Assembly (NCBI GenBank): GCA_947625495.1
Contig: CANQOQ010000007.1
Coordinates: 1 to 64,000, forward strand
Direction of reading: 5' to 3'
DNA length: 64,000 nt
Origin: Candidatus Gastranaerophilales bacterium
Lineage (GTDB): Bacteria; Cyanobacteriota; Vampirovibrionia; Gastranaerophilales; Gastranaerophilaceae
Shown: piece after piece, positions 31,688 through 36,361 of the stretch
Layout of the letters: each line of letters opens with the position of its first letter
Position numbering within the stretch: position 1 is the first letter of the stretch
The notes under the pieces: model-generated
The model's input: only the letters and a program-made list of their open reading frames with translations
Database searches by the model: none
Told to the model about the DNA's origin: nothing
Translations under genes and position numbers: made by a program

Positions 31688-32381
31688 CTTTATCTCGTCT
31701 CTTAATTAATTTAGGGATTTGCAGCAGATATTTTTTTAATTCTCTTGATTTGAAAACTGCTAATATGTCATCATTTTTGTAATTTTCATCTTCTATATCA
31801 GGCATAAAAAACAGAAAAAAATTTTTTGTTATTTTCTTTAATTTTTCACTTAATTTTCTGTTAAGAAAATTTTTAATATCACCAAATATTGCGGTAAGTT
31901 TTTCTGTAATTTGAATAAGAAATTCAGATATATTTTTTTGTATTTGTGCAAACTTTTCAATTATTTTAGGAATTTGCATTAAAATATTTATTAATGGAGA
32001 AATTATAATATTTATAACGATGCCTATAGGTTTTGAAATAATATTAGGCAAAGTATTTTGGATTTGAGATAATGTATTTCTGATTTTGTCAGCAATATTT
32101 TGAATATTTTTTGATAATTTATGAGCGAATTCAATTTGTCTTTCAAATGCGGTTTTTGCATTTTGTTCTCTTGCTTCTTGTGCTTTCATTCTTAGACCAA
32201 CGGCATAACATTTAAGCCAAGACCATTCATTTGAAGGTTTTGGTTTTGAAACAGTGTTATCTCTCATTTTACCTGCTCCGCCCGCCATTTTCTGGCTGCA
32301 TATCGGACAAGCAGCGGGCGGCAGCCCGTGCGGGCATAATCCTGCTTTATTTGTTGTTTGATTTAGTATTGGTGTTGACAT
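31647..32381 (-). CDS. CPHG...CPIC protein behind a cobalamin-type riboswitch
   Basis: 244 residues. The N-terminus has a compact Cys/His cluster, LCPHGLPPAACPICSQKM, able to bind a metal, followed by a Gly-rich link. The middle (about 105-140) is a weakly hydrophobic amphipathic stretch with repeated PxIISxP turns, and the C-terminus is very basic. No enzymatic motif. Its ATG follows directly on the U-run of a terminator whose 3' arm holds the ribosome binding site. Control by cobalamin would make a role in cobalt or B12 handling likely (inference), but the sequence alone does not show it. Confidence 0.7.
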   Translation of the reverse strand: MSTPILNQTTNKAGLCPHGLPPAACPICSQKMAGGAGKMRDNTVSKPKPSNEWSWLKCYAVGLRMKAQEAREQNAKTAFERQIEFAHKLSKNIQNIADKIRNTLSQIQNTLPNIISKPIGIVINIIISPLINILMQIPKIIEKFAQIQKNISEFLIQITEKLTAIFGDIKNFLNRKLSEKLKKITKNFFLFFMPDIEDENYKNDDILAVFKSRELKKYLLQIPKLIKRRDKDANRSIKNKSNKN

Positions 32382-32516
32382 AAAAAAACCTTACTGTTTA
32401 GTTAACGTAAGGCGCCGTATTTTATATTTAACCGGATTACGCAGTTAAAATATAAATTAGAGCATTCCGGCTTTAACGGCTGCGTTCCAGCTAAGGATTT
32501 ACACCTTATTTCCTCA
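32382..32516 (-). promoter_or_regulatory. Cobalamin-type riboswitch with terminator/RBS expression platform
   Basis: Read on the minus strand: TGAGGAAAT, then AAGG-TGTAAAT-CCTT (the GGUGnnAnUCC core closed by AAGG/CCTT), then GCTG-GAACG-CAGC followed by CGTTA (position of the CAGU-CCCGC-ACUG-UAA part of the consensus), then AGCCGGAATGCT near the 3' side. The order and spacing match the B12-box core of RF00174-type riboswitches. Downstream, CCTTAC...GTAAGG plus seven U (32412-32382) is a terminator touching the ATG; AAGG of its 3' arm is also the only ribosome binding site. Gene control by ligand is inferred. Confidence 0.7.
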
Positions 32517-32568
32517 TATTAACAAAAATATATTATCATGATGATTTTTAAGATAACAGTATTTTTTA

Positions 32569-33666
32569 CTAAATATTAAATCTGAAATGAACTATATCTC
32601 CATCTTGTATAATATAATCCTTACCTTCAAGTCTTGTTACACCTTTATCTCTTGCGGCAGCATAAGAACCGGAGTCGACAAAATCTTTATATGAAGTAAC
32701 TTCTGCCCTTATAAATCCTTTCTCAAAATCGGTATGAATGACACCTGCAGCTTTTGGAGCTTTTGAACCTGCTTTAACAGTCCAAGCTCTTACTTCTTTT
32801 TCTCCCGCCGTAATAAACGTGGTTAAATTTAGTAATTTATATACTGATTGAATCATTCTTTCAATCCCTGAACTTGTAACACCAAGGTCAGATAGATATG
32901 CTTTTGCTTCTTCTTTTGATAAATCAACAAGTTCAGCTTCTATTTTTGCTGAAATAACGACTACATCAGCATTATGTTTTTTTGCATATTCTCTTACCTG
33001 TTCAACATAATTATTACCTTTTGCAAGGTCTTTTTCACTGACATTGGCTGCATATATAACGGGTTTTATACACATTAGTTGAGATGATCTTGCTATTTCA
33101 AGTTCATCACCTTCAAAATGGTCTTCTATATTTATAAACATTGCGTCAGATAGTAATTCATTTAATTTTGTAAGAACTTTATGTTCCAATACAGCTTGTT
33201 TTTCACCGCCTTTTACCTGTTTAGTCAGTCTTTCAAGTCTTCTTTCTATTGAAGCCATATCAGCCAAAGCAAGTTCCGTATTTATTGTTTCAATATCATC
33301 AATAGGATTTATTTTCCCTGCGACGTGAATGGTATTATCATCGTCAAAACATCTTACTACTTGAATAATGGCATCAACCTCTCTTATATTATGTAAAAAT
33401 TGATTGCCTAGTCCTTCACCTTTACTTGCACCTTTAACAAGTCCTGCAATATCAACAAATTCAATAGCTGTAGGAATTACTACATTAGTTTTTACTAAAT
33501 CTTTTAATACGTCTAATCTCTCATCAGGAACATTAACAACACCGACATTGGGCTCTATGGTGCAAAAAGGATAATTCTCACTTTGTGCATTATTTGATGA
33601 GGTCAGTGCGTTAAATAAAGTTGATTTTCCGACATTAGGAAGTCCTACAATACCTGCTCTTAACAT
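32569..33666 (-). CDS. ychF: Redox-regulated GTPase/ATPase YchF (Obg family)
   Basis: 365 residues, full length. G1 GLPNVGKSTLFN at about 8-19, switch region and G3 DIAGLVKGASKGEGLGNQF, the coiled-coil insert around 130-170, and the C-terminal TGS domain (GVTRLEGKDYIIQDGDIVHF). YchF prefers ATP over GTP because of a changed G4 motif (here YAANVSE). It binds ribosomes and affects stress responses. Conserved housekeeping gene; the start at MLRAGIVG is the family start. Confidence 0.95.
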   Translation of the reverse strand: MLRAGIVGLPNVGKSTLFNALTSSNNAQSENYPFCTIEPNVGVVNVPDERLDVLKDLVKTNVVIPTAIEFVDIAGLVKGASKGEGLGNQFLHNIREVDAIIQVVRCFDDDNTIHVAGKINPIDDIETINTELALADMASIERRLERLTKQVKGGEKQAVLEHKVLTKLNELLSDAMFINIEDHFEGDELEIARSSQLMCIKPVIYAANVSEKDLAKGNNYVEQVREYAKKHNADVVVISAKIEAELVDLSKEEAKAYLSDLGVTSSGIERMIQSVYKLLNLTTFITAGEKEVRAWTVKAGSKAPKAAGVIHTDFEKGFIRAEVTSYKDFVDSGSYAAARDKGVTRLEGKDYIIQDGDIVHFRFNI

Positions 33667-34570: not shown

Positions 34571-36361
34571 TTATTTCTTGCTGTCGGTATTGGTTTTTAA
34601 AGGTTCTGCATATTGAGGAGTTAGTCCTGTCCAGAAATTATCATATTCTTCTTTAACCACATCAGCAACAGAGCCTGATTTCTTATATTTTTTATATAAT
34701 TTATCAGCATAATTTCCAAGTCTGCTTAGTATTACACCCGAAACAAAAGTAAATGCAAGGTTTTTTGCACCTGATAACATTTTTGTTGTACCGTATACGA
34801 AAGTGGCAAATGAACCGACAAGAGGAATGCAGGTTGTTAATGTGGCGGATATTTTTTCGTCTTTATCTTCGCCTTTTGCTATTGAATATGTACCTGCTCC
34901 GATTGGAAATAATACTGATAATACATCGGTAGGGGCGGAACCTACTTTTAGTTCTGCCTGTTTTAAAAAATATTCGCCGGCTTCAAGTTCTGTAGCGTCT
35001 TTTAAACCGGTACTTATTTTTGATGCCAATTTTGAAAATTCTTTATAGGAATTATCAGATACAACTTTTTTGCCTGTTGACTCTATAACAGACCCGTTTA
35101 AACCTTTTAAGATTGTCATAATTTCTTCAACGGCACCTTTTGAATTAATACCTGATGTCGATACTGTATCTTTAATAGATGATAGGTATTTTAATAAATC
35201 ACTTTTTACATTTTGAGAATATGCTTCATTTGATTCAATTGATTGTATTATGTTATCTGTAAGTTCAGATATTTGGCTTGAAATTTTTTCTCTTGCAGCT
35301 GTTTCATTGCTTCCTGAACATTTTCTAAAATTATCTAATAATATTTTAAGCTGTTTTATGGATTTTTCCGTTACTTCATCCTTAGGTAGTATATTATCGT
35401 TTATGGAATTAAGATTTGTTCTTAATTGTTCGTATATGTTTGATATGTTATTGGAAATTTGTTTTTTAGCGTTCATAATTTCGCTTCTGAGTTCAGCCTG
35501 AGCAGATTTTGACAAATCTTCAGTAGCATAGTTCTTATAGTTTGAAGTATTGAAAATACTGTTTTTATCCTTGAAAAATCTTTCTCCTATTTTTTGAGGT
35601 AAATCGGATAATAAAGATTGTCTCTTATTATCTCTTATCCTTCTTGCACCAAGACTGAAACTGTTTTCAAAATTTGATTGCAGTCTTTGATTTTGTTTAG
35701 AGATTATATTTATCCATTCTTCTAAAGTATGCGTAACTCCTTTTATGGTGATTTTTTGAAGTTTATCAGCTTCCGTAATGTTAGATAGGGAATCCGTATT
35801 ATAATTTTTCAACAGTGAAGTTAAGTTATTAACATTAATTTCTACTTTATCATAGTGTTTGCCTAGAGTTTTATCTGTAATTCTTTTGAATAAATTATAA
35901 GAAGATTGGGCAAATTTTTTTGTGATTTTATTTGCTTTAAATATTTTATCTGAAATCCAGTCTTTTATCGCCGTAAAATTAGAGCATGCCTGCATCGTAT
36001 TTATTGCTTTTTTTACACTTTTTTTCGTGTAATATATTGCTTTTTGATTTATATTGCCTGATTGTGATGTTATATCTTCAGTATATTTAGAAAGCTTTTT
36101 TAGAAAGCTTCCGTGTATACCTTTGGCAAATAACATACTAAAGATACCGACAGTCAGAATTGTTGATGCAATAGTAGAACCAAATATAATTTTCTTCTTT
36201 TTTGATATTTTTGTTTTGTTATTAATATCTGTATTATAGACATCAGATTTTATTTTTTTATTTTCAGCCGTGTTTTTTACACTACTATTGGCTTGTCCCA
36301 GTGTATATTGCGGAAACAAGCCAAAAATATTATCTTGTGTTGTATTATTTATTATTGTCAT
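34571..36361 (-). CDS. Lineage-specific membrane-associated coiled-coil protein
   Basis: 596 residues. A short disordered N-terminus, a basic KKKK stretch and one membrane helix (about 57-75, IIFGSTIASTILTVGIFSML), then about 300 residues of helical coiled coil, and two hydrophobic segments near the C-terminus (LSVLFPIGAGTYSIA, LVGSFATFVYGTTKML). No enzymatic motif. Its layout (basic patch, helix, long helical body) is like the other unassigned proteins of this stretch. It follows the 95-residue gene at 36375 by 13 bp, so the two form an operon. Confidence 0.7.
   Translation of the reverse strand: MTIINNTTQDNIFGLFPQYTLGQANSSVKNTAENKKIKSDVYNTDINNKTKISKKKKIIFGSTIASTILTVGIFSMLFAKGIHGSFLKKLSKYTEDITSQSGNINQKAIYYTKKSVKKAINTMQACSNFTAIKDWISDKIFKANKITKKFAQSSYNLFKRITDKTLGKHYDKVEINVNNLTSLLKNYNTDSLSNITEADKLQKITIKGVTHTLEEWINIISKQNQRLQSNFENSFSLGARRIRDNKRQSLLSDLPQKIGERFFKDKNSIFNTSNYKNYATEDLSKSAQAELRSEIMNAKKQISNNISNIYEQLRTNLNSINDNILPKDEVTEKSIKQLKILLDNFRKCSGSNETAAREKISSQISELTDNIIQSIESNEAYSQNVKSDLLKYLSSIKDTVSTSGINSKGAVEEIMTILKGLNGSVIESTGKKVVSDNSYKEFSKLASKISTGLKDATELEAGEYFLKQAELKVGSAPTDVLSVLFPIGAGTYSIAKGEDKDEKISATLTTCIPLVGSFATFVYGTTKMLSGAKNLAFTFVSGVILSRLGNYADKLYKKYKKSGSVADVVKEEYDNFWTGLTPQYAEPLKTNTDSKK

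Follow-up and report, generated by a model that had tools for sequence, protein, structure and literature searches.

In this Gastranaerophilales genome, the leader RNA in front of three contiguous genes, here termed A, B and C, is almost certainly a cobalamin riboswitch, as judged by comparison with its relatives. The same comparison indicates that it belongs to the AdoCbl-II class (RF01689) rather than to RF00174, and it supports the aptamer helices, the kissing loop, the hairpin at the start codon and the tie of this RNA to A-B-C across the order. The RNA itself adds an ordinary new occurrence to a known riboswitch class. In the account that we consider probable as a whole, the switch represses translation of A-B-C, and the three proteins take part in corrinoid acquisition or handling.

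The leader RNA and its family

The leader lies in the window, i.e. the whole stretch of 64,000 nucleotides analysed here, between ychF and the start of gene A (Table 1). A cmscan search of positions 32300-32620 recovered a full-length match to RF01689 (model positions 1-81, 36.2 bits), with E = 3.6e-7 for this 321-nt stretch and 4.9e-7 for the whole genome, and no other credible family. This score falls 0.3 bits below the RF01689 gathering score of 36.5, which counts against the riboswitch reading, and at gathering thresholds the window yields tRNAs only. Related genomes extend the evidence: the leader was found by DNA similarity in 30 of 58 relatives, the RF01689 model matched 48 of the 58 at E <= 0.1 (30 of the 58 above the cut-off), and the best orthologous leader, which precedes the same A-B-C operon, reaches 50 bits. 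A chance resemblance, with no riboswitch at all, would accord with the sub-threshold score of the single sequence, but it is refuted by the covariation described below and opposed by conservation throughout the order, such that its probability is negligible.

The original prediction was of a cobalamin-type riboswitch of family RF00174, with an Infernal search using that family as the proposed check. The cobalamin type is borne out by RF01689; the family is not, as RF00174 is ruled out by zero matches anywhere in the source genome (G000; 1.88 Mb, 97% complete), while control genomes did give matches. It is the sister family RF01689 that matches instead, and only once in this genome, at the window leader preceding A-B-C. 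All the strings on which the prediction was built occur on the minus strand: AAGG-TGTAAAT-CCTT at about 32507-32493, GCTG-GAACG-CAGC-CGTTA at 32491-32474, AGCCGGAATGCT within 32471-32460, and, abutting the ATG at 32381, CCTTAC...GTAAGG-U7 at 32412-32382. The element placed at 32382-32516 is real, but the aptamer match reaches 32531, past 32516. Lack of a covariance-model match together with unconserved pairs had been named as grounds for abandoning the idea; neither was found, since RF01689 matches and the pairs covary.

Beyond ychF, positions 34571-36361 of the window encode a 596-aa protein with two hydrophobic regions, which is conserved beside ychF in the genus and has no family match.

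Table 1. Positions in the window of the leader RNA, its parts and the adjacent genes
Feature	Positions	Strand	Basis or remark
Leader, ~150 nt	32382-32531	minus	between ychF and start of gene A (32381)
ychF	32569-33666		TIGR00092
AdoCbl-II (RF01689) aptamer match	32452-32531	minus	Infernal, 36.2 bits
Aptamer core P2-P6	32460-32515	minus	Rfam match and alignment of 23 distinct leaders
P2 GAG/CUC	32515-32513 with 32462-32460	minus	invariant
P4 UAAGG/CCUUA	32508-32504 with 32496-32492	minus	covaries
P5 GCUG/CAGC	32491-32488 with 32482-32479	minus	covaries
P6 CCG/CGG	32479-32477 with 32469-32467	minus	invariant
L5 side of kissing loop, ACGCA	32481-32485	minus	5 Watson-Crick pairs with L13
L13 side of kissing loop, UGCGU	32439-32443	minus	pairs with L5
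P13 hairpin carrying L13	32421-32456	minus	predicted fold, window and genus leaders
Shine-Dalgarno-sequestering hairpin	32388-32413	minus	core CCUUAC (32412-32407) / GUAAGG (32394-32389)
U7 tract	32382-32388	minus	between hairpin and start codon
Extended -10 element TG-A-TAATAT	32530-32538	minus	by eye, pattern kept in genus leaders
Gene A, 244 aa	31647-32381	minus	CPHG...CPxC near N-terminus, Gly-rich stretch, one hydrophobic segment
Gene B, 499 aa	30188-31687	minus	at least three hydrophobic segments, long predicted helices
Gene C, 162 aa	29690-30178	minus	all-helical (predicted); most conserved of A, B and C

Aptamer, kissing loop and expression platform

The conserved P2-P4-P5-P6 core that characterizes RF01689 is present in the leader. 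In 23 distinct genus leaders, standard pairs fill 99.1% of the cells in these four helices, vs 93.1% in shuffles; the core pairs include 17 double-change cells, and five pairs change on both sides vs 2.3 in shuffles, with none of 500 shuffles being as good. When the partners are slid by 1-3 columns pairing falls to 22-53%, a control that leans in favour of the structure because the latter was taken from the Rfam match; the covariation counts are independent of that choice. The leader of A in one relative (L103 of G039) is RF01689-like; its P4 loop holds a long insertion, and the model search overlooked it.

The L5-L13 kissing loop, a further feature of RF01689, was also found. A P13 hairpin is predicted in all the genus leaders folded; its stem sequences differ widely between species. 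The pairing between the two loops covaries, with the forms CGC:GCG, CAC:GUG (in G012 and G028) and GGC:GCC (in G032). Summed over 18 unique pairs, L5-L13 complementarity amounts to 195 vs 174 (sd 5.7) after loop exchange between species, and only 3 of 20,000 exchanges were as good as the own pairs, a test limited by loop sequences taken by hand from predicted folds. L5 of the window's genus differs from the published UCCCG consensus (PMC10653944). This departure, the position of the window copy just below the gathering score and a genus without NrdJ and the MetH reactivation domain would fit a relative of the cobalamin riboswitches whose ligand was changed or lost in the genus, with A-B-C answering another signal. 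We consider this very improbable, however, given that P2 and P6 are invariant while P4 and P5 covary, that orthologous leaders reach 50 bits, and that another member of the genus (G030) has the same switch class before both a btuB-like operon and A-B-C.

Downstream of the aptamer a two-hairpin layout is common to every genus leader folded, and the only visible Shine-Dalgarno sequence lies within the second hairpin, which leads into U7 and then the AUG. The claim that a Shine-Dalgarno-sequestering platform stands ahead of the three-gene group is hence borne out by the sequence, the folds and the relatives. Alternatively, the hairpin and U7 could act as an intrinsic terminator, making control transcriptional rather than translational, which would agree with the run of 5-7 U that follows a stable stem in most relatives. 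However, the U tract directly abuts the start codon, and no Shine-Dalgarno is visible outside the stem; the tract is absent in G003, G007 and G029, and the stem is altered in G029. No terminator was called in the window by a scan whose 8-nt loop limit excludes this 12-nt loop. As the U tract is not universal, translational control is favoured, and we regard a terminator as unlikely.

Inspection by eye also points to a TGnTAnnAT pattern shortly upstream of the P2 GAGG in the 25 genus leaders listed, three closely related ones reading TGATAAACT or similar; a consensus scan did not pick this element out. The pattern suggests that the leader has a promoter of its own, with the transcript beginning close to P2.

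Equilibrium folding of the window leader gives a closed Shine-Dalgarno hairpin with probability 0.99 when free and 1.0 with a locked aptamer. With closure predicted in either state, thermodynamics does not account for the switch; such folding was rejected as proof of switching, and the case for repression is one of homology. In characterized corrinoid riboswitches, binding of the corrinoid brings L5 and L13 together in a kissing loop, which stabilises P13 and favours formation of a ribosome-binding-site or terminator hairpin (PMC10653944). By analogy, repression by corrinoid is very likely here too.

We propose the following course of events, in which the ligand, the sign of regulation (repression), the pairing of the open state and the function of A-B-C are what we infer. 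The leader would be a cis-acting AdoCbl-II switch that represses A-B-C translation when corrinoid is plentiful: corrinoid binding would order the P2-P6 core and let L5 (ACGCA) kiss L13 (UGCGU); the kiss would fix P13, the adjacent CCUUAC/GUAAGG hairpin would close over the Shine-Dalgarno before the AUG, and synthesis of A, B and C would stop. Without corrinoid L13 would be free, and its CGUAA is a possible partner, in this species, for UUACG of the hairpin's 5' arm; the pairing would keep the Shine-Dalgarno open during transcription. Given the folding result, the open state would have to be a kinetic one. A-B-C would then be made under B12 scarcity and serve in acquiring or handling corrinoids. 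Several relatives show, by eye, another candidate open-state pairing, of the P2 3' strand with the pre-hairpin linker (CUCCA:UGGAG and variants); we rejected it because the window leader does not have it and because such a helix alone would not suffice to release the Shine-Dalgarno.

The switch and its genes across the order

Of the 44 sampled genomes that have B, about 40, across several families of Gastranaerophilales, carry the switch ahead of A-B-C homologues. The neighbourhood sample holds 37 RF01689-bearing leaders preceding A or B homologues, the window's included; beyond these, one leader is cut by the contig end (G015), one matches the model in part only (G036) and one was recognised by eye (G039). 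A and B are kept without the riboswitch in four of the 44 (G009, G016, G021 and G052). The upstream neighbour is ychF within the genus and a different gene in other families; hence, the switch appears to travel with A-B-C and not to mark a fixed locus.

A class-wide sample of 382 genomes shows B in at least 264 and RF01689 in at least 325 (E <= 0.01). Among the matches listed, 64 RF01689 matches are in genomes for which the position of B is also listed, and 57 of these switches stand on the strand of B, 714-989 nt upstream of it; on inspection, the remaining seven precede nrdD-nrdG in three cases, btuB-like operons in two, a divergent nrdD-like gene in one and a small gene in one. Again among the matches listed, another 29 switch loci include 23 with A and B adjacent to the switch, and seven genomes of genus g38 are without both B and the switch.

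Several individual loci vary this layout. In L189 (G382) the switch is followed by A and then directly by two C homologues, with no recognisable B. L106 (G028, contig C57) carries a second A-B-C copy, whose B is 75% identical to the window's B vs ~64% for the other G028 copy; it may represent contamination or duplication, as only the last leader bases are on the contig. RF01689 precedes a small protein of about 95 aa in L194 (G320) and L031 (G004). In four loci from other families (L199, L201, L198 and L200, of G062, G074, G080 and G059, respectively) it precedes a different gene of 506-591 aa; in three of them a second gene follows, whose 226-245 aa product contains a Gly-rich stretch. The pair member tested from these loci has no Pfam match, and homology was shown neither between B and the large protein of this sister-order pair nor between A and the small one (27% probability).

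Elsewhere in the order, the same switch class stands 5' of genes of B12 metabolism: NrdD with NrdG, MetE, and BtuB-BtuC-BtuD-like operons. The NrdD and MetE identities are based on NCBIfam matches above the cut-offs; the BtuB, BtuC, BtuD and BtuF calls are the best-named NCBIfam matches below cut-off, to which Pfam adds TonB-barrel and plug domains in BtuB and a periplasmic binding protein domain in BtuF. The switch is also followed by genes that, on their N-terminal sequence only, look CobT- or CbiM-like. Known cobalamin regulons comprise B12 synthesis, transport of B12 or its precursors, cobalt transport and B12-independent isozymes (PMC3766115), and because they match these classes the other regulon members can be regarded as textbook ones.

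A candidate role for A-B-C and comparison with known systems

A, B and C are contiguous and their homologues keep the same order in relatives. None of the three has a Pfam or NCBIfam family above cut-off, a PDB sequence match at a meaningful level, a detectable enzyme domain, or a FecCD, plug or CbiQ domain, and none resembles a transporter. In an alignment of 24 A proteins C16, P17, H18, G19, C25, P26 and C28 are invariant, and the CPHG...CPxC motif is possibly metal-binding; hydropathy places the hydrophobic segment of A at about 110-137. The AlphaFold2 model of B is too poor (pLDDT 63) for a fold search, and its hydrophobic segments are few for a transporter, which counts against uptake. 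C is modelled well (pLDDT 91.6), and its structure search gives only weak armadillo/HEAT-like matches; overall, PDB sequence and structure searches yielded nothing decisive. No homology of A with B was shown.

The distribution of B12 importers and users bears on the role more directly. In G000 no FecCD/BtuC, TonB plug or CbiQ importer was detectable, nor NrdJ or a MetH reactivation domain; those of its proteins with a B12-binding domain that were inspected belong to the radical-SAM group, by themselves a weak sign of B12 need in this genome, which counts against the proposal. Many genus members likewise have A-B-C with neither NrdJ nor the MetH reactivation domain. Three genomes (G039, G044 and the 82% complete G048) combine B12-dependent NrdJ and A-B-C without FecCD, TonB plug or CbiQ; importers of other families are possible. 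In G001 and G006 a divergent btuBCDF-like operon lies between ychF and the A-B-C leader, and G018 and G020 are arranged alike, judging from where their FecCD and plug matches lie. G037 and G049 have riboswitch-linked CbiM/CobT-type genes and strong CbiQ matches and are without B, which argues against a cobalt role. Of the earlier suggestion that the three proteins handle cobalt or corrinoids, the corrinoid part is thus favoured indirectly, by neighbours and absent importers, and the cobalt part disfavoured.

The leader might also be a true cobalamin riboswitch whose operon is unrelated to uptake, A-B-C being a B12-independent stand-in, or an envelope or cytoplasmic complex for times of B12 shortage. 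The control of the B12-independent isozymes NrdD and MetE by the same switch in this order, the dissimilarity of A, B and C to known transporters, and the presence of A-B-C in genus members both with and without a btu-like operon are consistent with such a role; yet no enzyme domain is detectable in any of the three proteins, and the divergent btuBCDF-like neighbour and the NrdJ-bearing genomes without importer markers fit uptake better, making it somewhat unlikely. For corrinoid uptake or handling by A-B-C we hold the chances to be about even, in view of the lack of family matches, the absence of importer markers, the NrdJ-bearing genomes without importers, and G037 and G049 without B. More tentatively, A-B-C could be a previously unrecognised corrinoid uptake or scavenging system across Gastranaerophilales, replacing BtuBCDF or acting beside it.

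Riboswitches are reliable pointers to gene function, and B12 is an object of competition in the gut. A switch before the same three genes across an uncultured gut order gives A-B-C its first testable role, and because this association is order-wide the genes are strong candidates for an unrecognised B12 acquisition or handling system; in the NrdJ-bearing genomes without the importer markers searched they are the obvious suspect for acquisition. The open-access literature yielded nothing about the A-B-C operon and, for Gastranaerophilales or Melainabacteria, nothing about cobalamin riboswitches or B12 uptake.

Among known systems, BtuB-BtuCDF import is under the same riboswitch class in related genomes and is encoded divergently beside A-B-C in four species, but A, B and C have no detectable similarity to any Btu component. 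The RF00174 cobalamin riboswitch belongs to the same clan and has the same core logic, but is without a match in the G000 genome. The switches of E. coli btuB, env8HyCbl and P. megaterium metE, in which the L5-L13 kissing loop shuts expression (PMC10653944), share that loop with the present leader; unlike in these, L5 and L13 here depart from UCCCG yet covary, and the open-state partner is putative. AdoCbl-II (AdoCbl-variant, RF01689), the class of the present leader, was described by Weinberg et al. 2010 from taxa given as marine (PMC2864571), whereas the present occurrences are in uncultured, gut-associated Gastranaerophilales. The leader differs from the 2010 description in the separate Shine-Dalgarno hairpin after P13 in the genus and in a target operon without a family match; common to both are a compact P2-P6 aptamer without the long P6 extension of RF00174, a kissing loop with a downstream platform, and a place before B12-related genes, which the class also occupies in this order.
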